From: Streptomyces sp. SID3343
GTDB taxonomy: Bacteria; Actinomycetota; Actinomycetes; Streptomycetales; Streptomycetaceae
Assembly: GCF_009865215.1 (NCBI RefSeq)
Contig: NZ_WWJX01000143.1
Coordinates: 1-36,632 of the forward strand
Direction of reading: 5' to 3'
DNA: 36,632 nt
This document shows positions 1 to 11,873 of this stretch, piece after piece. Position numbers and translations under genes: made by a program. How positions within the stretch are numbered: the first letter of the stretch is position 1; each line of letters opens with the position of its first letter. The notes beneath the pieces are model-generated. The model was not told the DNA's origin. It saw nothing but the letters and a program-made list of their open reading frames with translations, and did no database searches.

Positions 1-249
1 ACATCCGGGGTCGCCCCGAGGGTGGAGCCCAGTTGCACGCCGCACGGCGCGTTGTCCTCGTCGTTGCCCGCGCTGTGGGCTTGGACATCCGGGGTCGCCC
101 CGAGGGTGGAGCCCAGTTGTACGCCGCACGGCGCGTTGTCCTCGTCGTCGCCCGCGCTGTGCGCCTGCACATCCGGGGCCACGTTGGGTGCGCCCAGTTG
201 TACGCCGCACGGCGCGTTGTCCTCGTCGTCGCCCGTGCTGTGCGCCTGG
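1..249 (-). repeat. Tandem 84/84/81-bp coding repeats
   Basis: On plus-strand coordinates the units are 1-84, 85-168 and 169-249. The third unit is shorter by exactly one codon, so the reading frame is kept. Units 1-84 and 85-168 differ at only five positions. The unit nearest the start codon differs mainly in its last few codons, where A-P-N-V-A-P replaces S-T-L-G-A-T-P. The array continues past the left edge. The repeats are contiguous with no spacers and lie inside a reading frame, so this is a coding repeat and not CRISPR. Confidence 0.95.
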
Positions 250-266
250 ACATCGGGGTTGGCCAT
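1..266 (-). CDS. Multi-repeat RiPP precursor peptide (5' part, runs off left edge)
   Basis: Reading the minus strand from ATG 266-264 gives 88 residues with no stop before the window edge. A GAGGAG ribosome site lies about 6 nt upstream of this ATG. A second ATG two codons earlier sits directly on that site and is less likely. After a four-residue start (MANP) come three consecutive repeats of 27, 28 and 28 residues and the start of a fourth. Each begins DVQAHS, continues through DEDNAPCGVQLG and ends in Pro. Each has exactly one Cys (C20, C47, C75). The repeats are very acidic in the middle. Four of five base differences between repeats 2 and 3 are silent, so the protein sequence appears to be under selection. 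There is no signal peptide and no recognisable enzyme domain. Proximity to a radical SAM enzyme, two proteases and an exporter, and a motif shared with the peptide at 6962-7144, make a multi-core precursor the best reading. A structural repeat protein is the alternative. Function is inferred. Confidence 0.72.
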   Translation of the reverse strand, partial: MANPDVQAHSTGDDEDNAPCGVQLGAPNVAPDVQAHSAGDDEDNAPCGVQLGSTLGATPDVQAHSAGNDEDNAPCGVQLGSTLGATPD

Positions 267-534
267 GCACATCTCCTCTGGCTCGGGGTCGGATGTCATC
301 CGACGTCACGGTGCGAAGCTACGAGCCGGCGGTTGAGGTCCGGTATGTGTGGAGCTGCCTGGCAGCTTGTGCCCGCTCCGAGTTCCCCGGATCGCCCGCA
401 CCCTCTTCCTCGCTGTCCTTGCCACGCATCCGTTTGTCCGCGAAGCTACAAATCTGAGCGCAGACGTGACGAACAGTGACTACGTCGGTCTGCGATGTGC
501 TGCGCCCGGTGCGCACTGTCGTGGGGAGGGCCTG
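267..534. promoter_or_regulatory. Divergent promoter region, precursor 1 / SARP
   Basis: This 268-bp non-coding stretch separates the leftward repeat precursor from the rightward SARP gene. It holds a 15-bp perfect palindrome, AGCTGCCTGGCAGCT, at 353-367, and a shorter one, GGATGTCATCC, at 291-301. A 10-bp direct repeat, GCGAAGCTAC, occurs at 313-322 and 440-449. Read on the minus strand, this repeat contains TAGCTT, which could serve as a -10 box. A near copy, GCGAGGCTAG followed by AGCTGCC, is found at 7180-7196 in the other cluster promoter region. These are candidate binding sites for the SARP or another cluster regulator. Promoter positions are not certain. Confidence 0.45.
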
Positions 535-2403
535 ATGGCCGGGAGCAGCGATGTCGCAAGTCCTCTGCGCTTCAAGATTCTCGGACCGCTGCAGTTGTGT
601 TCGGGCGGTATCCGGCTCGAACTCGGCCCGTACAAGCAGCGGGTGCTGCTTGCCGCGCTGCTCTGCCGGGCGAACACCGTGGTGTCGGTCGATCAGCTCA
701 TCGACGCGCTGTGGGACGGTGACCAGCCCCGCACCGCGCGCAAGAACCTGCAGGTATATGTGTCCGCGTTGCGCAAGATCGCGCGCGGTCACATCGATCA
801 CGTGCCGTACGGCTACAGCTTGCGGGCGACGGTAGAGGAGTCGGACTTGTTGAAGTTCGACCAACTCGCCGCCGCCGGGCGCCAAGCGCAGCGTGAGGGC
901 AACGCGGGCGGAGCCTGCGCCCTGTTCGGGGAGGCGGTGCGGCTCTGGCGGGACGAGCCGTTGGTCGATCTGCTGGGCAGCGCCTTCGTCGCCCACGAGT
1001 CGCAGCGGCTGGCCGACCGCTTTCTCGCCGTCTACGAGGATTGGGCCGAGCTCGAGGTCGAGGCGGGCCGGGCGCTCGGTCTGCTGGACCGGCTGGGCGA
1101 ATTAGCCGGGCGGCACCCGTTCAGGGAACGGGTGACCGCCTTGCACATGACGGCGCTCGACCAGGTCGGCGGCAGGTGGCAGGCACTCGCCTGCTTCGAG
1201 AACCACCGACAGTTCATCGCCCGGGAACTCGGACTCGACCCCAGCCCGGTGCTCCGCCGGCTCTACCGTGAGATCCTGGCCGGCGAATCCTCGGCACAGC
1301 AGCACCCGGCGGCCCACGTCGGCGGCGGCCGGCCGACGATTCGATCGAGGCCCGCCCAACTGCCCCGCGATCTGTCCGACTTCGTGAGTCGCAAGGACCA
1401 GGTCGAGGAACTGGTAGGTGCCCTGACCAGCGACTCCCGATGTACCGATGTCGCGGCCATCTCCGGACCGACCGGTGTCGGCAAGACCGCACTCGCCGTC
1501 CACGTCGGCCATCTCGTCGCCGACCGTTTCGCGGACGGTCAGATCTTCGTCTCCCTGAGCCACCCCGACGGGATGGCGCGCGAGTGGCGCGAGGTCATGA
1601 CCGAACTGCTGCGAGGCACCGGACTCGACGTCACACTGCCGCAGGCGGAAACCTCGGCGCTGGCGTTGTGGCGTTCCTGGGTCGCCGAGCGTCAGTTCCT
1701 CTTCGTGCTCGACGGTGCGACGAGCGAGGCCCAGATTCGTCGGTTGCTGCCGGGGCGCGGAGAGAGCCGCACCCTGCTCACCGCGTCGCGCAAGCTCAGC
1801 GGGCTGGAGTGTGTCCACCGCTTGGAGTTGGGCGAGTTCTCTCCCGCCGAGGCCCTGGACCTGTTGGAACGCGTGCTCGGCAAGGCCAGGGTCGCGGACG
1901 CGAGTGGTGCCTTGCACCGGATCCGGGAGTTCTACGGCCTGTCCCCGCTGGTCGTGCGCACCCTCGCGGGGAAACTCACCGTGCAGCGTCACCTGTCGCT
2001 GCGCGAGTACGCGGACCAGCTCGGCCGACTGCCCGCGGCGCTCGACGAACTCCGCGTCGGAGACGTGTCGGTCCACGACGGTTACCTCAGGTTCCACCAG
2101 AGCCTGACGCCACCTCAGCAGGCGGCGTTCGGGGTACTGGGCGCGCTGCCCAGGCCCGCTGTCGACCAAGCGGGCCTGCTGGCGGCCTTGGGCGGTCCGG
2201 CGGAGTCCGCCACCCGGATCGTGGAGGAACTGATGGAGGCCAACGTGGTCGTCGTCGACGACGACGACGAGGTGATGGCCCACACCGTCCACTACCGGAT
2301 GCCGGCGCTGGCGTACCGGTACGCGGCCGTCCTTCGCGGAAGCAGCGACACGACACCCTCCGACCGGTCAGCGAACCATGCCGGAGAGCACCTCGTGCAG
2401 TGA
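535..2403 (+). CDS. SARP-family transcriptional activator with NB-ARC domain
   Basis: 622 residues from ATG 535, which has a GGGAGGG ribosome site about 5 nt upstream. An upstream in-frame GTG at 349 would add 62 residues unlike the family. Residues about 11-97 form an OmpR-type winged-helix DNA-binding domain. About 105-250 is the bacterial transcriptional activation domain, ending in the typical ARELGLDPSP segment. Residues 311-318 are a P-loop (GPTGVGKT) starting an NB-ARC ATPase module. Large SARPs of this kind activate secondary metabolite clusters by binding direct repeats upstream of -10 boxes. This one lacks the long TPR tail of AfsR. It lies beside the repeat precursor and is the likely cluster activator (inference). 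Its last 36 bp overlap, tail to tail, the GAF gene on the other strand. Confidence 0.9.
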   Translation: MAGSSDVASPLRFKILGPLQLCSGGIRLELGPYKQRVLLAALLCRANTVVSVDQLIDALWDGDQPRTARKNLQVYVSALRKIARGHIDHVPYGYSLRATVEESDLLKFDQLAAAGRQAQREGNAGGACALFGEAVRLWRDEPLVDLLGSAFVAHESQRLADRFLAVYEDWAELEVEAGRALGLLDRLGELAGRHPFRERVTALHMTALDQVGGRWQALACFENHRQFIARELGLDPSPVLRRLYREILAGESSAQQHPAAHVGGGRPTIRSRPAQLPRDLSDFVSRKDQVEELVGALTSDSRCTDVAAISGPTGVGKTALAVHVGHLVADRFADGQIFVSLSHPDGMAREWREVMTELLRGTGLDVTLPQAETSALALWRSWVAERQFLFVLDGATSEAQIRRLLPGRGESRTLLTASRKLSGLECVHRLELGEFSPAEALDLLERVLGKARVADASGALHRIREFYGLSPLVVRTLAGKLTVQRHLSLREYADQLGRLPAALDELRVGDVSVHDGYLRFHQSLTPPQQAAFGVLGALPRPAVDQAGLLAALGGPAESATRIVEELMEANVVVVDDDDEVMAHTVHYRMPALAYRYAAVLRGSSDTTPSDRSANHAGEHLVQ

Positions 2404-3030
2404 GTCGACCAGCCGCAGGCCGCCGGCCCGCTGCGCGGGCCCCAACTCGGCGAGGACCCGGACGATTTCGGCCAGCCGCTCGAACTCCGCGCCACCGAGG
2501 TCCAGCGCCCGCCGCGCCGCCCGGCTGCGGACAAGGCCGTGTAGGGCGAGCCCCGCCTGGCCGGCGAAGGCCGCCAGCAGGTCCAGATCGGCGATGCTGG
2601 AGCGAGACTGCGGGTGCGGATCGAGCACCTGGATGACGCCGAGGATCTCCTCCCGGTGGACCACCGGGGCCGCCATGATCGAGTTCGGTACGTAGCGGGT
2701 CCGCTTTGCCAGGTCCTGTGCGAAGAGCGGGCTGTCCGCGAGGTCGTCCACGGTCATCGACTCGCCGGTGTCGACAACCCAGCCGGCGATGCCCCGGTGT
2801 GCCGGGAACCTGGTGCCGACGAGGAACTCCTCGCCCTCTCCCGACACCGCCTCGAAGACCAGCTCGTCGGCGTCCCGGTCGAACAGGAAGATCGAGCTCG
2901 CCGCCGCGCCGAAGATCGAACGCGCCACCCCCACGATCGAGGCGAGCAACTCGCGGTCGTCCGGGCCGGGATCGGCCAAGGCCCCGGAGATGGCCGCGAT
3001 CATCGCTGCGGAGTCCGCCGGCTGGTTCAT
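2368..3030 (-). CDS. GAF domain-containing protein
   Basis: 220 residues from ATG 3030, starting 4 nt after the stop codon of the S8 protease gene, so it is the last gene of the leftward operon. Residues about 20-165 match a GAF domain: an ASSIFLFD strand, then a GIAGWVVDTGE helix segment with the conserved G-x-x-G-x-V, then SIMAAPVVHREEILGVIQVL. The rest is helical and ends in a leucine-rich stretch. There is no HTH, kinase, phosphatase or membrane segment. GAF domains bind small ligands, often cyclic nucleotides. A nucleotidyl cyclase two genes upstream makes a cAMP-type ligand conceivable, but this is conjecture. Confidence 0.8.
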   Translation of the reverse strand: MNQPADSAAMIAAISGALADPGPDDRELLASIVGVARSIFGAAASSIFLFDRDADELVFEAVSGEGEEFLVGTRFPAHRGIAGWVVDTGESMTVDDLADSPLFAQDLAKRTRYVPNSIMAAPVVHREEILGVIQVLDPHPQSRSSIADLDLLAAFAGQAGLALHGLVRSRAARRALDLGGAEFERLAEIVRVLAELGPAQRAGGLRLVDSLHEVLSGMVR

Positions 3031-3034
3031 GGAT

Positions 3035-3856
3035 TCAGGCTCCTCGCACGTTTGCTGCCGTCAGATAGAGAATGGTCTTCAGCTCGAAGGGCGTCAGCGA
3101 GGGATGCTTGCCGAGGATCAGCGCGCTCAGCCCGGCGATGTGCGGCGCCGCGAAGCTGTTGCCGGTGTTGCGGGTAGTACCGCCGTTCGGTCCGGCGACG
3201 GGAACGGCTTGGCCCCGGGCGAAGAACTCCACCGGCGGTGACGGGTTGTAGAGCACCAGCGCCGAGTCGTCCTCGGCATGGCTGCCGACCGAGATCACCG
3301 ACGAGAACCGCCAAGGGAAGCTCTCGATCCTGGAGTTGTGCGCCGAGGCGACGATCACCGAGCCGTTGAAGTAGGCGTCGTCGGCCAGTTCGCGCAGCTC
3401 CTGGTTGAACTGCGGACGTGAGGTCGACAGGCTCAGATTGATCACCTCGAAGCGCTGCTCGATGGCCCAGCGCAGACCGGTGAGCAACGCGTCGCCCGTC
3501 CCGCCGCCCTTCTCGCCGAGGATCCGGACGCTGTGCAGCTCGCAGCCGGGGGCGATCCGGCGGACGATGCTCGCACAGGCCGTCCCGTGGCCGCAGGTGT
3601 CGCCCGGATCCACCTTGCCGACTTCCGGGCCCTCGTCCCGGTTGAGCACGGCGTACGAACCGGCGAGCTCCCCGATCAGCGGATGTCCGGCTTCGATGCC
3701 GCTGTCGACGACACACACTCGTACGCCGCTCCCGTCGGCGCCTCCGTAGGCCCACTCGGGTGTGATCAGGCCGGCGTCCGCGGTGGCGATCGGGATGTCG
3801 CAGGGTCGGCGGTCGAGCAGATTCCAGGTCAGGGCGTCGGTACGGGTCGTGGTCAT
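3035..3856 (-). CDS. Short subtilisin-like (S8) serine protease, cytoplasmic
   Basis: 273 residues from ATG 3856, overlapping the stop of the cyclase gene in an ATGA arrangement. The catalytic triad is complete: D51 in VCVVDSGIE, H90 in CGHGTACASIV and S234 in GNSFAAPHIAG. The oxyanion-hole Asn is N174. There is no signal peptide, no pro-domain and no C-terminal extension, so the enzyme should stay in the cytoplasm. This sets it apart from secreted subtilisins, and resembles the bare S8 domains that cut RiPP precursors in cyanobactin pathways. It is translationally coupled to the operon that starts with precursor 2. A role in cutting one or both precursor peptides is inferred. It could also be a general intracellular protease. 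Confidence 0.88.
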   Translation of the reverse strand: MTTTRTDALTWNLLDRRPCDIPIATADAGLITPEWAYGGADGSGVRVCVVDSGIEAGHPLIGELAGSYAVLNRDEGPEVGKVDPGDTCGHGTACASIVRRIAPGCELHSVRILGEKGGGTGDALLTGLRWAIEQRFEVINLSLSTSRPQFNQELRELADDAYFNGSVIVASAHNSRIESFPWRFSSVISVGSHAEDDSALVLYNPSPPVEFFARGQAVPVAGPNGGTTRNTGNSFAAPHIAGLSALILGKHPSLTPFELKTILYLTAANVRGA

Positions 3857-6800
3857 CTTTCGGCCGGCTCTCCCAACAGGCGCTTCGTCCGCGCCACTCC
3901 GACGAGGTGTCCCTTGGCGGCGTATCGTCGTTGCGCGGCCAGGATTGCCGTCCGCGCCTGGTGAGGCAGGCCGAGCGCGGTCCTGGCGTATGCCAGGTCG
4001 AGACACGTCGTGGCCTGATCGGCCGGGGAGTCGGTGCGGTGCGCCAGCAGCACGGCCCCGCGGGCCAGCCGCAGGGCTTCGGCGTGCTCCCCGTTCAGCG
4101 CACGGATCCTGGCCAGTACGCCGTACCGGTTGGCCTGCACCCCCGGGTACCCGTCCGCGACCGTGATGTCCTCGACCAGCGCCGCGGCCTGCCGCCAGTC
4201 CTGCCCGGCCAGGTGCACGCGGGCCAGCTCCAGCGAGGTGGTGTGGATCAGGCCGCCCGCCCGCAGTGCGCGGGCCGCGTCCAATGCCTCGCGCAGCGCG
4301 TCCTCGGCCTGCGCCGGCCGGTCCGTCAGAGCGGCGAGCACGCCGTCGAGCAGCGGCCGGAACACCGCTCCCTCGCCGTAGGCCAGCGCCGCCATCGCGT
4401 GCTGGGTACCGGCCAGGCACTCGGCGGCCTGTTCGGCTCGGCCCTGAATCGCGTGCAGCACCGTGAGCGGGAAGCCCAGCGTGACCTGTACGGCCAGCCG
4501 GTCGGCACCGTGCGCGGCCAGCAGCGACTCGCAGCGGGCGACTGCGGCCGGCGCGGGATCGGGCCCTCGCCAGAGCGAGATTCCCATCGCTCCCAGGGTG
4601 TTGGCCAGATCCCGGTCGGCCGCCGCGGCGATCGAGTGGGTCAGCGCGTGACTCAGCACCCGGAGAGCTTGGGCGTGCCGGCCGCGGCGCTGGCAGAAGC
4701 CCGCGATGACCAGGCGGCTCCGGGCCAGCCCGAGATCGTCGCCGGTGGCTTCGAAGACCGCGAGTGCGTCGCTCGCCGTGCGTTCCAACGTCGCGTCGTC
4801 GTGCTCGCACGCGGCCAAGTGCAGCCGGGCGTGGGCGGCCGTCCCCACCGCGCTGTGCTCGTCGGCCTCGGCCACCGCCCGGCGCAGTACCTCGCGGGCC
4901 TTGCCCGGCTGACCGGACGTCAGCAGCGCCTCCCCCAGGTGCTGGAGCAGCTCGGGGCGGCCCGGGTCGCCCGGCTCGGCGAGTTCGGCGGCACGTTGGA
5001 AGAGCGTCAGTGCCCAGGGCAGGTCGACCCGCCCGAGCGCGCCTGCCCCCGCCACCGCCAGATGTCGCACCGCGCGCCGGCGCAGCACGCTGTTGCGCTC
5101 GTCGAGGCGGCCGACGGCGCTGCGGTAGCGGTAGGCCATCTCCAGATGGGTTCCGATCAACGCGTCCGGCCGAGCGGCGTGCGAGAGGTACTCGGCGTAG
5201 CGCTCGTGGAGTTCTCCGCGCCGGAGTTTGGTCAGGCCCTCGTAGGCGACCCGTTGGGTGACGCCGTTGACGAAGCAGTAGGCGGCGCTCGCGCCGAACG
5301 GCCGGCGCATCGGCTTGACCAGCCCGCGCCGGGTGAGTGTGCGGAGCACCGCGGTACGGCCGGCCGGGGTCTGCGGGTCGTCGTCGAGCCGGTCCAGGTC
5401 CGCGGAGTCGAACTCGCGTCCCACGACCGCCGCGTTGCGCAGGACGGTTCGATCCGTCTCGGCCAGCCGGTCGATTCGAGCGGCGACCAGGGCGTGCAGG
5501 TTGGGGGGAAGTTCCTGAACGCCGCCCGACTCCTGGACCATGGCGGCGAGTTGCTCCAGGTAGAGCGGGTTGCCGTCGGCTTGCGCCACGATCTGCTCGG
5601 TGGCCGCAGCGTCGTGCAGGGTGAGGTCGACCAGATGGGCGGCGAGGACGGCGGAGTCCGCGTCGGAGAGGTTGGTGACGCTCACCGTGGTCGAGTTGGC
5701 GCGGCCCGTTCCCCAACTCGGGCAGGCGTCCATCAGCTCGGGGCGGGCCAGGCACAGGACCATGATGGGCAGCCGGCGAAGGTCCTCCACCAGCCGGTCG
5801 AGCAGGCCGAGGAAGGGTTGGTCGGCCCAGTGGAGGTCGTCCAGGACCAGCAGCACCGGCCGTTCGCCGGTGAGCACGGTCAGCACATGCGCGACCGCCG
5901 CGCACGTGTCGTCCTCGGAAGGCGCCGGCGTGCCGTCGAGCAGCAGCCCGGTGCGGAGCAACGCGACAGCCTGCTGGGAGCCGCTCTGCCGCTCGACCTC
6001 CGTGACGAGCGGCGCTATGCACTCGGCGAGCGCGTGCAGCGAGCCGCCGGTACCGGCCGCGCGGCAGCGGCCCGAACCCACCGGGTCCACCGATCCGGCG
6101 CTACGGCGCAGCCATTCGTCGACCAGGCGGGATTTCCCGATGCCCGCTTCCCCCAGCAGCGTGAGGACATGGACGTCGCTCTCCTCGACCACGCGCCGCC
6201 AGGCCAGGTCGAGTTCGCTCAGGTACCGTTCGCGGCCGACGAAGGGCACGTCGAAGCGGTGCATGGTCTCCGGGTCGGGGTCGGCGAGGGCGATCAGCCG
6301 GGCCGCCTCGAGTCGCCCCGCCACTCCCTTGAGCCGCAGCGGGCCGACGTCCGCGGTGGTCAGCGCGGGTCCGGCGGCCCGGCAGGTCTGGGCGCTGAGC
6401 AGGATCTCGCCGGGGCCGGCCGCCTGCTCCAGCCGGGCGGCGATGTTCACCACCTCACCGGAGACCAGTGCCTGCCGCCTGGCCGGATCCGCCGTGGTGA
6501 CCACCTCACCGGTGTGCACGCCGATCCGCGCGCCGAGCCGTACCCGATGGTCGCGCTCCAGCTCCGTGTTCAGGTCGCCCAGCGCGGCCAGCATGTCCAC
6601 GGCGGCGTCGAGTGCCCGGCGGGTGTCGTCCTCCCTGGTGGCGGTGAGGCCGAAGACGGCCATCACCGCGTCGCCGATGAACTTCTCGACGATCCCGCCG
6701 TGGGCCGCGATGCGACGCTCCATCAACTCGTAGTAGCGCAGCAGGATCGAGCGGAGCAGTTCGACGTCGAGCGCGCCCGAAAGCTCGGTGGAGCCGACGA

Positions 6801-6945
6801 GGTCGCAGAAGAGCACGGTGACCACTCGGCGTTCCTCCGCCGTGTGCCGCTCGGCATTCGGCGACTCGGCCGAGGCCGGGGTGCCGCACTGGGAGCAGAA
6901 GAGTGCTCCGGCATCAAGTTCCGCCGCGCAGGACGGGCAGCTCAT
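3853..6945 (-). CDS. Class III nucleotidyl cyclase fused to AAA/STAND ATPase and TPR region
   Basis: 1030 residues from ATG 6945. A zinc ribbon (C3, C6, C17, C20) comes first. Residues about 40-220 form a class III cyclase domain with metal-binding D48 (FCDLVGST) and D92 (IGDAVMAVFG), substrate Lys K88 and transition-state N167 and R171 (VNIAARLE). All key residues are present, so it should be active, probably on ATP. From about 232 there is an AAA_16-type ATPase with P-loop G265-S272 (GEAGIGKS) and a Walker B-like LLVLDDLHWAD. The C-terminal 450 residues are Ala/Leu-rich helical repeats of TPR type. The gene starts 16 nt after the precursor 2 stop with no clear ribosome site, which suggests coupling. 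It probably senses a signal for the cluster. What it senses is unknown. Confidence 0.88.
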   Translation of the reverse strand: MSCPSCAAELDAGALFCSQCGTPASAESPNAERHTAEERRVVTVLFCDLVGSTELSGALDVELLRSILLRYYELMERRIAAHGGIVEKFIGDAVMAVFGLTATREDDTRRALDAAVDMLAALGDLNTELERDHRVRLGARIGVHTGEVVTTADPARRQALVSGEVVNIAARLEQAAGPGEILLSAQTCRAAGPALTTADVGPLRLKGVAGRLEAARLIALADPDPETMHRFDVPFVGRERYLSELDLAWRRVVEESDVHVLTLLGEAGIGKSRLVDEWLRRSAGSVDPVGSGRCRAAGTGGSLHALAECIAPLVTEVERQSGSQQAVALLRTGLLLDGTPAPSEDDTCAAVAHVLTVLTGERPVLLVLDDLHWADQPFLGLLDRLVEDLRRLPIMVLCLARPELMDACPSWGTGRANSTTVSVTNLSDADSAVLAAHLVDLTLHDAAATEQIVAQADGNPLYLEQLAAMVQESGGVQELPPNLHALVAARIDRLAETDRTVLRNAAVVGREFDSADLDRLDDDPQTPAGRTAVLRTLTRRGLVKPMRRPFGASAAYCFVNGVTQRVAYEGLTKLRRGELHERYAEYLSHAARPDALIGTHLEMAYRYRSAVGRLDERNSVLRRRAVRHLAVAGAGALGRVDLPWALTLFQRAAELAEPGDPGRPELLQHLGEALLTSGQPGKAREVLRRAVAEADEHSAVGTAAHARLHLAACEHDDATLERTASDALAVFEATGDDLGLARSRLVIAGFCQRRGRHAQALRVLSHALTHSIAAAADRDLANTLGAMGISLWRGPDPAPAAVARCESLLAAHGADRLAVQVTLGFPLTVLHAIQGRAEQAAECLAGTQHAMAALAYGEGAVFRPLLDGVLAALTDRPAQAEDALREALDAARALRAGGLIHTTSLELARVHLAGQDWRQAAALVEDITVADGYPGVQANRYGVLARIRALNGEHAEALRLARGAVLLAHRTDSPADQATTCLDLAYARTALGLPHQARTAILAAQRRYAAKGHLVGVARTKRLLGEPAER

Positions 6946-6961: not shown

Positions 6962-7144
6962 TCAGTACGCGGTCATGTCGCCGATGCACCACGGGGTTTC
7001 ACCGTCGTCTCCGCCTGCGGCGTGCAGCACGACCTCGTGCTCCTCGGTGTCGGGTTCGAGTGCGGTGTCCTCGTGCTCGGCGGGCACATCCTCGGGTGTC
7101 GGCTCGGTCACGTCGATCACACCTTCCATGACGTCGGTCGGCAC
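6962..7144 (-). CDS. Candidate single-core RiPP precursor peptide
   Basis: 60 residues from GTG 7144. An in-frame TGA lies 18 nt upstream, so no earlier start is possible. ATG 7129 is an alternative giving 55 residues. Neither start has a strong ribosome site. The first 40 residues are acidic (many Glu and Asp, no Cys), as expected of a leader. The tail is HAAGGDDGETPWCIGD followed by MTAY. It aligns with the repeat in the precursor at the left edge (HSAGDDEDNAPCG): His, x-Ala-Gly, two Asp, acid, Pro and a single Cys (C53) in the same order. It is the first gene of the leftward operon and lies 227 bp from the divergent radical SAM gene. Precursor identity is inferred from size, composition, context and the shared motif. 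Confidence 0.66.
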   Translation of the reverse strand: MPTDVMEGVIDVTEPTPEDVPAEHEDTALEPDTEEHEVVLHAAGGDDGETPWCIGDMTAY

Positions 7145-7370: not shown

Positions 7371-8555
7371 ATGATCGGCACCCGGCTGGACGACGTCGAC
7401 GCGCCACGCCTGATCAGGAGCGACCGCGGCTGGTGGTTCATCGGCAATCGGACCTGGACCCTGCTCAAACCGGAACACGTCGGTGCGGACGGGGAGTTGC
7501 GCCCGGACATCGACGCCTTCCTGCGCCGCGAAGGCGCCTACCGCGAGCGCACCGCCAAGTCCTTCTCGCTGACCGTACTGACGAGCACCGCCTGCAACCT
7601 CGGCTGCGGCTACTGCTTCCAGAACACCGGCCAGGACCCGAAGGGCGGCCACCGCCCGCCACGGATCAACCTCAAGCGGCTGAACACCCGAACCATCGAC
7701 CGGATCGTCGACTTCACCCGCGAGCGGATGGCCGAGGCCGATCTCGCCAAGCTCTATCTGTTGCTCTTCGGCGGCGAGCCGCTGCTCAATCCCAAGGGTT
7801 GCCTGGAACTGCTGGAGCGCTGCGCGCCACTCGGCCTCGGTGCCGCGGCGATGACGACCAACGGGGTGCTGCTCACCCGCGGCCTGGCCGTCGAGCTCGG
7901 CGAGGCCGGTCTGCGCGCCGTGCAGATCACCTTCGACGGAAGCCGGGTCGACCACGACACGACCCGCGTCACCCACGCCGGCGGGTCCACCTTCGACGCC
8001 ATCGTCGCCAATATCGCGGCGGCGACGGCGGCGACCGACCTGCGGTGGAACTTCCGGGTCAATGTCTCGCACCACAACGTCGACCGGATCGGCGAGCTCA
8101 TCGACCAATTGGACGGCCACGTCGAACCGAACCGCTGCGCGTTCACCTTCGCCTGGGTCGGCGACGCGGGCATCGGGTACAGCAACGACCTCGCCCGAGC
8201 GCGGGAGGTCGAGGACCACTTCGTCGAGTGGACGGTCCGATCGATGGAGCGGGGCTACCAGGTCGTCCGGCCCAGCATGCGGACGACCTGTCAGATCTGC
8301 TCGGTGCCCGGCGGACCGCAGGGAGCGGTGGTCAACGCCGACGGCACCCTGTTCAGTAGCTGGCAGTCGGCCGGCAAGCCGGGTATGGAAGTCGGGCACA
8401 TCGACCACGGCTATCTGGACCCGGGCACCGTACCGGACCGCTGGGTGACCTGCGGCTACGAGTATCAGCAGGACGACACCGACCTGATGGCCCGCTTCCA
8501 GGACAACGTCGACGGGCGAATCCTCGACCACCTGCAGTCCACCGGCCGCCTGTAG
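7371..8555 (+). CDS. Radical SAM peptide maturase with degenerate SPASM region
   Basis: 394 residues from ATG 7371, preceded by a GGGAGAG ribosome site. The radical SAM cluster motif CxxxCxxC is C75-C79-C82 (ACNLGCGYCFQN). Other hallmarks are FGGEPLL (133-139), MTTNG (161-165) and ITFDG (186-190). The first 60 residues form a small Trp-rich domain (GWWFIGNRTW) that may bind the peptide, but I cannot confirm an RRE fold. The C-terminal part has C307, C310 and C361 around a VVNADGTLFSSW segment that resembles a SPASM domain. Ser-Ser stands where SPASM proteins carry the Cys of the G-x-x-x-C motif, so the auxiliary cluster site is incomplete. The family modifies ribosomal peptides (thioether, C-C or other bonds) or matures enzymes. 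Here it most likely acts on the two precursors. The reaction cannot be read from the sequence. Confidence 0.87.
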   Translation: MIGTRLDDVDAPRLIRSDRGWWFIGNRTWTLLKPEHVGADGELRPDIDAFLRREGAYRERTAKSFSLTVLTSTACNLGCGYCFQNTGQDPKGGHRPPRINLKRLNTRTIDRIVDFTRERMAEADLAKLYLLLFGGEPLLNPKGCLELLERCAPLGLGAAAMTTNGVLLTRGLAVELGEAGLRAVQITFDGSRVDHDTTRVTHAGGSTFDAIVANIAAATAATDLRWNFRVNVSHHNVDRIGELIDQLDGHVEPNRCAFTFAWVGDAGIGYSNDLARAREVEDHFVEWTVRSMERGYQVVRPSMRTTCQICSVPGGPQGAVVNADGTLFSSWQSAGKPGMEVGHIDHGYLDPGTVPDRWVTCGYEYQQDDTDLMARFQDNVDGRILDHLQSTGRL

Positions 8556-8563
8556 GGGGAACC

Positions 8564-9829
8564 GTGTCGGCAGGCGTGCTCCGAACCAACCGGAACTTCC
8601 GTCGGTCCCTTTTGGCGGACCTCACCTCCAATGTCGGCTCGGCCGTCTCGATCATCGCCTTTCCACTGCTGGTGCTCAGCCTGGGCGGAAACGCGGTGCA
8701 GGCCGGTGCGGTCGCCACCGTCTCCCTGGTGACCAGGCTGGCCTTTCGCCTCCCGGCCGGGAGCCTGGTCGACCGGTGGGACCGGCGCAAGGTGATGCTG
8801 ACGGCCGACCTGGTGCGTTTCCTGGCGGTGTCCACCATTCCGCTGGTGGCCCTGTGGGGATCGCCGCACTACGTCCACCTGCTGGCGGTGGCCATGGTCG
8901 AGGGGCTTGCCACCGCGCTGTTCGGGCCCGCCAACACGGTCCTCGTGCGCGACATCGTCGTCGAGCGGGATCTGGCCCAGGCCCTGGGCGTCGGCCAGGC
9001 CGTCCAGGCGGCGGTGAATCTGGCCGGTCCGGCCCTCGGCGGCGCGCTCTACGCGGTCGATCGAATGCTGCCGTTCGTCGTGGACGCGCTCTCGTACGCG
9101 GTATCGGCCGTGCTGCTCTGGCGGATCACGGTCCGGCCCGCCGCCACCGCCGCGCGCACCGGCGACCGCGGCCTGATGGCGGGCATCCGCTGGCTGGTGC
9201 GGCAGCGGGAGCTCTTCGTGATCATGCTCTACGCCGCCGTGATCAACCTGGTCTCGGCCGCCATCGATGTGACGGTCATTTTGGAACTGCGTGACAACGG
9301 TTCGTCCAGCTCGGTGATCGGACCCATCCTGTCCTGCGCGGGCGTCGGCGCGATCATCGGCTCGCTGCTGGCTCCGTGGCTCGTCAAACGGCTGAGCGTG
9401 CCGGCCATCCTGCTCGGTATCGGGGCCGGTTGGACGACCATCCTGGCGGTGTTCGCGGTGGCCTTCCAGCCATGGCTGGTCGCTCTTCTTCTCACCGTGC
9501 TGATGATGCTGTCGCCGTCGGCCGGGGTGATCGTCGGTCACGCCCTGCTCGCGCGGGCCCCCCGGCACCTGCTCGGCCGGGTCAGCGCCGCCACCGGCCT
9601 GCTGCTGAGCGGTCTGGCCGCGCTCGGCCCGATTGCGGCCGGCCTGCTCTTCCAGGGCCTCGGTGGCGCCCGCTCCTGGGTGATGCTCGCGGTTTTGACG
9701 GGGGCGGTCACGGCGGTCGGCTGGATCCCGCTGCAGGCGACCCGGCGGCTGAACGCCACCGCCGCACCCGACCCGGAACCGGCCGTTGTCGCCCACTCCA
9801 CCGACTTGGGAGCATCCCCGGATGACTGA
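8564..9829 (+). CDS. MFS exporter (MFS_3/EntS-like)
   Basis: 421 residues from GTG 8564, 8 nt after the radical SAM stop, with an AGGGGGAA ribosome site inside that gap. About twelve hydrophobic segments are visible. The loop after helix 2 has the MFS motif A form (GSLVDRWDRRKVML). The pattern LPAGSLVDRWDRR and the overall length resemble the enterobactin exporter-like MFS_3 family, found in many natural product clusters as drug/peptide exporters or self-resistance pumps. Its tail ([10 protein letters not shown]) overlaps the start of the oligopeptidase gene by 8 bp, so the three genes form one operon. Export of the finished peptide is inferred from position. Confidence 0.88.
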   Translation: MSAGVLRTNRNFRRSLLADLTSNVGSAVSIIAFPLLVLSLGGNAVQAGAVATVSLVTRLAFRLPAGSLVDRWDRRKVMLTADLVRFLAVSTIPLVALWGSPHYVHLLAVAMVEGLATALFGPANTVLVRDIVVERDLAQALGVGQAVQAAVNLAGPALGGALYAVDRMLPFVVDALSYAVSAVLLWRITVRPAATAARTGDRGLMAGIRWLVRQRELFVIMLYAAVINLVSAAIDVTVILELRDNGSSSSVIGPILSCAGVGAIIGSLLAPWLVKRLSVPAILLGIGAGWTTILAVFAVAFQPWLVALLLTVLMMLSPSAGVIVGHALLARAPRHLLGRVSAATGLLLSGLAALGPIAAGLLFQGLGGARSWVMLAVLTGAVTAVGWIPLQATRRLNATAAPDPEPAVVAHSTDLGASPDD

Positions 9830-11873
9830 CGACCCGTACCGCCGGTTGGAAGACGCCTCGGCGCCGGAGGTGTCGGAGTGGACGGAGAAGCAGGAGTCGG
9901 CCTACCAGGCCGCCGCCGACGGTTGGCGGGCGCGGGAGAGTCTGTACGCCGAGTTGACCTCGCTCTCCGAGCGGCTCGGCGTCGGGTCCGCGCCCCGTCC
10001 CGCGGGCGGACGGCTGTTCCTGACCCGCGTGTTGCCGGGGGCCGAGCACCCGGAACTGGTGGTCGTCGAACCGTCGGGCGCCGTACGGGTGTTGGTTGAT
10101 CCCGCACGGGCCGACCCCAGCGGCGGCACGACGCTGGAGGAGTGGGAGCCGTCCTGGGACGGCAGGTTGCTCTCGTACCAACTGGCGCCCGGCGGCCGGG
10201 AGGACGCCGCCCTGTACGTCCTGGACGTGGACTCGGGGCGGCTTGTCGACGGGCCGATCGACCGGGTACGCCGGACGACGGTGGCCTGGCTGCCGGACGG
10301 CAGCGGCTTCTACTACGTCCGGCGGCTGCACCCTTCGCTCAACCCCGGCGAGGGCCAGTACCACCGGCGGGTCCGGCTGCACCTGATCGGGACCGACGCG
10401 GACGACGACCCGGTGATCTTCGGTACCGGCCGGGAGAAGACCCAGCACTACACCGTGCGCGTCTCGGCCGACGGCCGCTGGTTGGTCGTCAGTGCCGCTG
10501 CCGGCACGGCGCCCCGGAAGGATGTGTGGCTGGCGGACCTGACCGCCGCGCCCCTGCGGGCGCCGCTGCTGCGGACCGTGCAGGAGGGCGTCGACGCTCG
10601 TTCGCTGCTCCACATCCGGCCGGGCACGGATGCGGACGGCCGCTGCTATCTCAGTACCGATCTGCACACTCGCCGCGGCCGCGTGGTCACGGCCACGCCG
10701 GGCGAACCCACGCCCGAGACCTGGACCGACCTGATCCCGGAGGACCCGGAGGCCGTCCTCGAGGACTTCGCGATCCTCGACGGGCCCGAATCGGCCCGGC
10801 CGGTCATGCTGGTCGTGCGGACCAGACACGCCGTCAGCGAGATCACGGTGCACGACCTCGCGGACGGCAGTCTGCTCGGCTCGGTGCCCATCCCGCCGTG
10901 CGGCACGGTCGGCAAGGTCAGGGTCGCCGCTTCCGACGCCCACCAAGCCTGGTTCGTCTACACCGACTTCGGCACACCCCCGGTCGTCCTGCGCTACGAC
11001 GCGCGGACCGGGGCACTCGACACGTGGCCCGTCCCGGGCACCTTGGCACCGGTGCCCACGCCGGACCTCACCACCCGTCAGGTCACCTTCACCTCCCTCG
11101 ACGGGACCCTGGTCCGGATGTTCGTCATCGCCCGGCGCGACACGCCGGACCGGCCCCGTCCCACCCTCCTCACCGGCTACGGCGGCTTCGCGCAGTCGCT
11201 CACCCCGGCCTACTCGCCCGAGGCCATCGCCTGGGTCCGGGCCGGTGGGGTGTACGCGGTGGCCAACCTGCGAGGCGGCGGCGAGGAGGGCGAGGACTGG
11301 CACCGCGCCGGCATGCTCGACCGGAAGCAGAACACCTTCGACGACTTCCACGCCGCCGCGGGCCACCTGGTCGCCTCCGGGTGGACGACCTCGCGGCAGC
11401 TCGGGATCTGGGGCGCCTCCAACGGCGGCCTCCTGGTCGGTGTCGCACTCACCCAACGGCCCGCCGCCTACGGCGCCGTGGTCTGCATGGCCCCCCTCCT
11501 CGACATGGCGCGCTACGAACTCTTCGGCCTGGGCCCGAGCTGGGTCGGCGAGTACGGCAGCGCCACCGACCCCGACCAGTACGCATACCTGCTCACCTAC
11601 TCCCCGTACCACCACGTCCGCTCGGGCACCGCCTACCCGGCCGTTCTCCTCGCCGTCTTCGACGGCGACAGCCGCGTCGACCCCCTCCACGCCCGCAAGA
11701 TGTGCGCGGCCCTCCAGGACTCCACCAGCAGCGGCAAACCCATCCTCTTCCGGCTGGAACGCGGCGCCGGCCACGGCGCCCGCGCCACCTCCCGCCGCGC
11801 CGCCCTCTTCGCCGACACGCTCGCCTTCTTCACCGACCAACTGGGTCCAATCCAGCCGGTCCCGGACGCTTGA
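9822..11873 (+). CDS. Prolyl oligopeptidase (S9A family)
   Basis: 683 residues from ATG 9822, overlapping the exporter stop (ATGACTGA). Length is normal for prolyl oligopeptidase. The N-terminal two thirds form the beta-propeller. The alpha/beta-hydrolase domain begins near [13 protein letters not shown]. The triad is S533 (GASNGG), D616 (FDGDSRVDP) and H651 (GAGHGA). No signal peptide, so it is cytoplasmic. The family cuts after Pro in peptides of up to roughly 30 residues, and some members process or cyclise RiPP cores. In the left-edge precursor every repeat is 27-28 residues and is bounded by Pro, which matches both the specificity and the size limit. It therefore looks like a dedicated maturation peptidase. 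That link is inference, but the family call is firm. Confidence 0.93.

Follow-up and report, generated by a model that had tools for sequence, protein, structure and literature searches.

A multicore peptide precursor gene divided between two contigs and its bounded radical SAM cluster in Streptomyces sp. SID3343

At the left edge of the window (the whole 36,632-nucleotide stretch that was analysed, taken from the left end of contig C614 in a draft genome), the minus strand contains a short tandem repeat, and the question is whether this repeat is a real gene and what its product could become. As the initial annotation had described, a hidden minus-strand frame starts at a well-placed ATG (264-266), with AGGAG 6 nt ahead of it, and remains open through units of 27, 28 and 28 codons until it leaves the window at base 1. 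The three residues MAN are all that precedes unit 1. Each unit leads from PDVQAHS over an acidic spacer to DEDNAPCGVQLG, and the one Cys per unit lies within this block, which was seen in units 1-3 as had been reported. In general form, the unit reads [DE]V-x-AH-S, acidic spacer, single Cys and GVQLG. The differences among units 2, 3 and 4 are mostly silent, and the comparison of units 2 and 3, on which the same remark had been made earlier, gave 4 silent and 1 replacement codon among 28. Since independent relatives conserve the unit, the repeat is not a product of chance, and positions 1-266 of the minus strand are a real coding region, one half of a string-of-peptides gene. The features of the locus are listed in Table 1.

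Table 1. Coordinates of the precursor gene, its units and the neighbouring genes
Feature	Location	Strand	Remark
5' part of the multicore precursor gene (units 1-3, beginning of unit 4)	window 1..266	-	open frame; rest on C1070:9518-9706 (-)
Unit 1, PDVQAHSTGDDEDNAPCGVQLGAPNVA	window 177..257	-	27 aa
Unit 2, PDVQAHSAGDDEDNAPCGVQLGSTLGAT	window 93..176	-	28 aa
Unit 3, PDVQAHSAGNDEDNAPCGVQLGSTLGAT	window 9..92	-	28 aa
Shine-Dalgarno-like AGGAG	window 273..277	-	6 nt ahead of precursor ATG
SARP/AfsR-type regulator (Trans_reg_C, BTAD, NB-ARC)	window 535..2403	+	
GAF-domain protein	window 2368..3030	-	conserved across cluster family
S8 subtilase, candidate unit/leader protease	window 3035..3838	-	nearest named family QhpE
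Adenylate-cyclase-type / AAA / TPR protein	window 3853..6945	-	conserved across cluster family
Second precursor, single-core, MPTDV...EEHEVVLHAAGGDDGETPWCIGDMTAY	window 6962..7144	-	between cyclase gene and rSAM1
Radical SAM maturase rSAM1	window 7371..8555	+	CteB-like AlphaFold model
MFS exporter (predicted)	window 8564..9829	+	
S9 prolyl oligopeptidase	window 9822..11873	+	prolyl endopeptidase 2bkl, E 3e-127
JmjC_2 oxygenase	C1070:8462-9400		directly past precursor stop

The gene had been recognised as incomplete at the window edge, and its other half was located on contig C1070, whose right end was the only second match to window positions 1-1200 within the genome. Window bases 1-35 form an exact 35-nt end overlap with C1070, and C1070 terminates inside the same repeat, reading ...QLGSTLGATPDVQAHSAGNDEDNAPCGVQLGSTLGATPDVQAHSAGDDEDNAWCGVQLGAPA-stop. 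The simplest join of C614 and C1070 encodes 139 aa in five units of 25-28 residues, with the last unit ending ...NAWCGVQLGAPA. Because the contigs break in repeats, the copy number is uncertain and may differ from five (4, or more than 5). The nearest solved structures to the JmjC_2 oxygenase on C1070 are the histidyl hydroxylases NO66 and MINA.

To the left of the break, the gene order on C1070 is ilvA, ABC, greA, mca, DUF4307 and JmjC, and on the window side DUF255 comes after the S9 gene; where no homology search assigned these border genes (ilvA, ABC, greA, mca, DUF4307, DUF255), the names are what we take them to be from our own reading. Two sister species have the order ilvA, ABC, greA, mca, DUF4307, DUF255, with a gap of 74 bp between DUF4307 and DUF255. 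This "empty site" indicates that C1070 and C614 are neighbours and that the ~13 kb block from the JmjC gene through the S9 gene is an insertion, which thus bounds the cluster. In a third sister species (G002), the space between DUF4307 and DUF255 holds another insertion of ~4.6 kb (L135:10941-15500), in which TetR-, zinc-type alcohol dehydrogenase- and sigma-factor-like ORFs were recognised by eye. This different insertion suggests that the spot is an insertion hotspot.

Within these borders, the layout is that of a RiPP cluster, namely a short precursor gene beside modifying enzymes, protease and exporter. The second precursor (60 aa) is a single-core version with the same recognition element and the same Cys motif; it lay beyond the view of the initial annotation, as did the JmjC oxygenase and the single-core relatives described below. 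The S8 and S9 proteases that had been expected beside the precursor are its neighbours in close relatives as well. Most related clusters also encode a companion peptide (NCBIfam NF045560), an enzyme resembling haem oxygenase and another radical SAM enzyme, none of which is present in the window cluster. Neither the NF045560 peptide (at E 0.001) nor the second radical SAM enzyme was found in the 1645-contig draft of the source genome, so the window cluster represents an rSAM1-only form.

To find relatives, a search with the precursor only was used, and it returned Phytohabitans maris (3 units) and a genome of the same order, G042 (4-5 units, MGKKREQENEPEVVAHSGEDTPWCGVNTG...). Both carry rSAM1, with 67 and 49% identity, respectively, and homologues lacking a radical SAM partner, which had been named as a possible refutation, did not appear. 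In Phytohabitans, rSAM1 shares the contig of the precursor and adjoins an MFS gene, and the precursor is followed by a JmjC gene whose product is 56% identical to that of the window genome. In G042, rSAM1 sits at the end of another contig than the precursor; in another genome of this genus (L121), the two genes are separated by 135 bp. rSAM1 was present in 33 of 392 genomes of the order (E 1e-40) and in 2 of 396 genomes of a phylum sample (E 1e-50). The latter matches lay only within the own family of the source, so the rSAM1 family looks concentrated in the source order and Phytohabitans.

The neighbourhoods of rSAM1 were read at 20 kb, and loci L087-L102 were fetched with short flanks, some of which held no precursor within reach. 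The recurring set consists of rSAM1-MFS-S9 and cyclase/AAA/TPR-S8-GAF, to which the NF045560 peptide, the haem-oxygenase-like enzyme and the second radical SAM enzyme are often added. Acidic precursors of 1-5 units, each unit with [DE]VxAH[SGA] and one Cys, lay near rSAM1 in the majority of the neighbourhoods inspected, in many cases immediately upstream. They are single-core in L126, L128, L119, L120 and L123, multicore in L113, L115-L118, L121, L122 and L127, and encoded by four paralogous genes in L114. The most distant rSAM1s (L124, L125) are accompanied by a different short peptide, ...AAPCDVCRW. JmjC was considered as a marker of the family and rejected, since JmjC_2-type proteins occur widely in the order (178/392) and were seen in the shared context only in Phytohabitans and G370 (L109). 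G370 carries a more distantly related form of the cluster, which encodes a JmjC protein (49%) together with a peptide whose end is EVEEADVEGHSISEELEVDAPVLDVNFGC. A further short peptide of Phytohabitans (L049:5042-5182, minus strand), with two Cys and the end ESDVEAHSCSPLCMEV, is encoded upstream of the radical SAM gene of this genome.

Among 19 units compared, no residue other than the Cys and a single His is invariant. Silent differences also prevail in the L122 relative, where a comparison of units 2 and 3 over 24 codons showed 8 silent changes and 1 replacement. The precursors are multicore in the proper sense, with several near-identical cores per ORF and single-core relatives. The [DE]VxAHS element occurs once per core in the multicore precursors and ends the leader in the single-core precursors of L126, L128, L114, L119 and L120; from this element onward, the single-core relatives are about one unit long. 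The earlier idea of a separate recognition sequence in every unit is therefore better supported, as the repeated element appears to be the leader-end element of the single-core precursors. In the tree, multicore L127 groups with single-core L128 (100/100), apart from the remaining multicore clades, and the switch between the two forms has thus probably occurred more than once.

Searches of the precursors against Pfam and NCBIfam gave no credible match, and ordinary annotation consequently misses them. No description of the family was found in the open-access literature on multicore radical SAM precursors, "aroma-sacti" and the motif strings, and NF045560 covers the companion peptide only. The precursor family is a recurring and apparently unnamed one among ribosomal natural products, which agrees with the initial annotation that no named RiPP class is known to have this repeat.

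The rSAM1 family has the motif CxxxCxxC and four more conserved Cys (CxxC, SCW, WVxC). The AlphaFold model of the window enzyme (pLDDT 82.5) gave CteB, a thioether-forming SCIFF maturase, as its best PDB match (Z 24.4, 342 residues, rmsd 4.9; Foldseek E 8e-15), followed by anSME, ChlB, TigE and SkfB, and CteB was the top sequence match as well. Among the NCBIfam families listed, no cut-off was reached; the nearest profiles and folds were TIGR04463, CefB, geopeptide, PapB and CteB, and the cyclophane RiPP models FxsB and YhhB scored 50.5 of 370 and 56 of 445 bits. Position 330, an auxiliary-cluster Cys in nearly all 14 aligned relatives including that of Phytohabitans, is Ser (AGC) in the window enzyme. 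This substitution may be an error, a ligand swap or a sign of decay, and it makes the activity of the window enzyme less certain.

These findings are very probably explained by a multicore radical SAM RiPP precursor that undergoes modification at each Cys, cleavage by the S8 and prolyl peptidases, and export. Each unit would be a self-contained cassette of [DE]V-x-AH-S recognition element, acidic spacer and short one-Cys core. rSAM1 would bind the element and introduce a modification at the core Cys, most likely a thioether, and in the source genome and Phytohabitans the JmjC-type 2-oxoglutarate oxygenase encoded beside the precursor would probably hydroxylate a core residue. The S8 and prolyl-type peptidases may then split the string into single peptides for export by the MFS protein. 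The outcome would be several copies of nearly one product from each translated precursor. In this scheme, the units with their conservation and the cluster with its borders are direct observations; the chemistry, the sequence of steps, the cleavage sites, the export and the activity are inferred.

The bond is the part of this scheme with the strongest competitor. rSAM1 could make another change near the Cys, such as a C-C crosslink or an epimerisation, with the Cys serving as a ligand or being modified later. The thioether has no single conserved acceptor: an acidic residue precedes the Cys in most units and not in ...AASNVAWCGVHQE. At Cys +2, most units have a hydrophobic or beta-branched residue (V, I, L, F, T), and TigE, anSME and the cyclophane YhhB family are also close by fold or profile. 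We consider this chemistry unlikely, though a serious contender, since the Cys is invariant and the best profile and fold neighbours named above are maturases of thioether or Cys-rich peptides.

It is considerably less probable that the product stays one multiply modified, uncut chain, for which TvgA, with repeated modified motifs in a single chain, is the precedent (PMC9062424). Every unit bears the leader-end element that single-core relatives have once, the single-core part from this element on is about as long as one unit, and two peptidases lie within the cluster, all of which argue for cutting. An association of the prolyl peptidase with the Pro before [DE]VxAH did not hold cleanly, as single-core L119, L120 and L126 have the peptidase without the Pro, and Pro as the cut site is therefore only a guess. 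A structural, surface or metal-binding repeat protein with no tie to the radical SAM enzyme, which the initial annotation had named as a refutation in its large form, is hardly credible: acidic tandem repeats are known in structural proteins too, but the joined gene encodes only ~139 aa, relatives with 1-5 units lie near the same radical SAM enzyme, and His and Cys are the sole invariant residues.

Given the preferred reading of a cut and exported multicore precursor, the known systems match it in part. The "aroma-sacti cluster" (NF045560), named for the companion peptide of related clusters, shares the S8, GAF and cyclase neighbours, and its peptide end PEVQAHS resembles the repeated PDVQAHS. 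Unlike the window precursor, this peptide has a leader domain of ~50 residues and the core IAGGALF without Cys, and it is accompanied by the second radical SAM and haem-oxygenase-like enzymes. The ranthipeptide/SCIFF-type maturases (CteB, PapB, CefB, geopeptide, TIGR04463) also act on Cys-containing precursors, whereas the window system has one Cys per unit and repeats the unit together with its recognition element. QhpD/QhpE, which mature one enzyme subunit, are likewise a pair of radical SAM enzyme and S8 protease (S8 to QhpE, its best match, E 1.6e-28; rSAM1 to the QhpD family, E 2.3e-12; both below cut-off), but here the target would be a multicore peptide. In cyanobactin-type multicore precursors, recognition sequences are repeated with each core in a similar manner, while the enzymes differ and include no radical SAM. 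TvgA/TvgB combine repeats modified by a single radical SAM enzyme with a 2-oxoglutarate oxygenase in the cluster (PMC9062424) and differ in the TVGG motif, copies with no recognition elements between them and cyclopropylglycine chemistry. Biphenomycin-type clusters employ a hydroxylase of the JmjC/cupin type for RiPP tailoring (PMC12257519); their MNIO and B12 radical SAM chemistry acts on an aromatic motif, and they have no such multicore string.

We tentatively suggest, with somewhat more doubt than confidence, a new radical SAM RiPP class, in which cassettes of [DE]VxAHS and a one-Cys core, with JmjC hydroxylation, would yield near-identical peptides from an almost leaderless string, and whose precursors would evolve between single-core, multi-gene and multicore forms. 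A defined, bounded cluster is now at hand for this radical SAM RiPP family. The nearly leaderless multicore precursors should be useful to study core recognition by a radical SAM enzyme where many cores share one chain, and the natural one-unit and many-unit versions permit a direct comparison.

The companion peptide of the related clusters shows a pattern of its own. Its end PEVQAHSxIAGGALF, or nearly so, recurs across genera (L115, L116, L117, L121, L122, L127, L008, L009), and the same loci also carry the haem-oxygenase-like enzyme and the second radical SAM enzyme. This near-constant end suggests that the NF045560 peptide is the source of a small molecule or signal that is itself conserved, and not of an antibiotic that varies.
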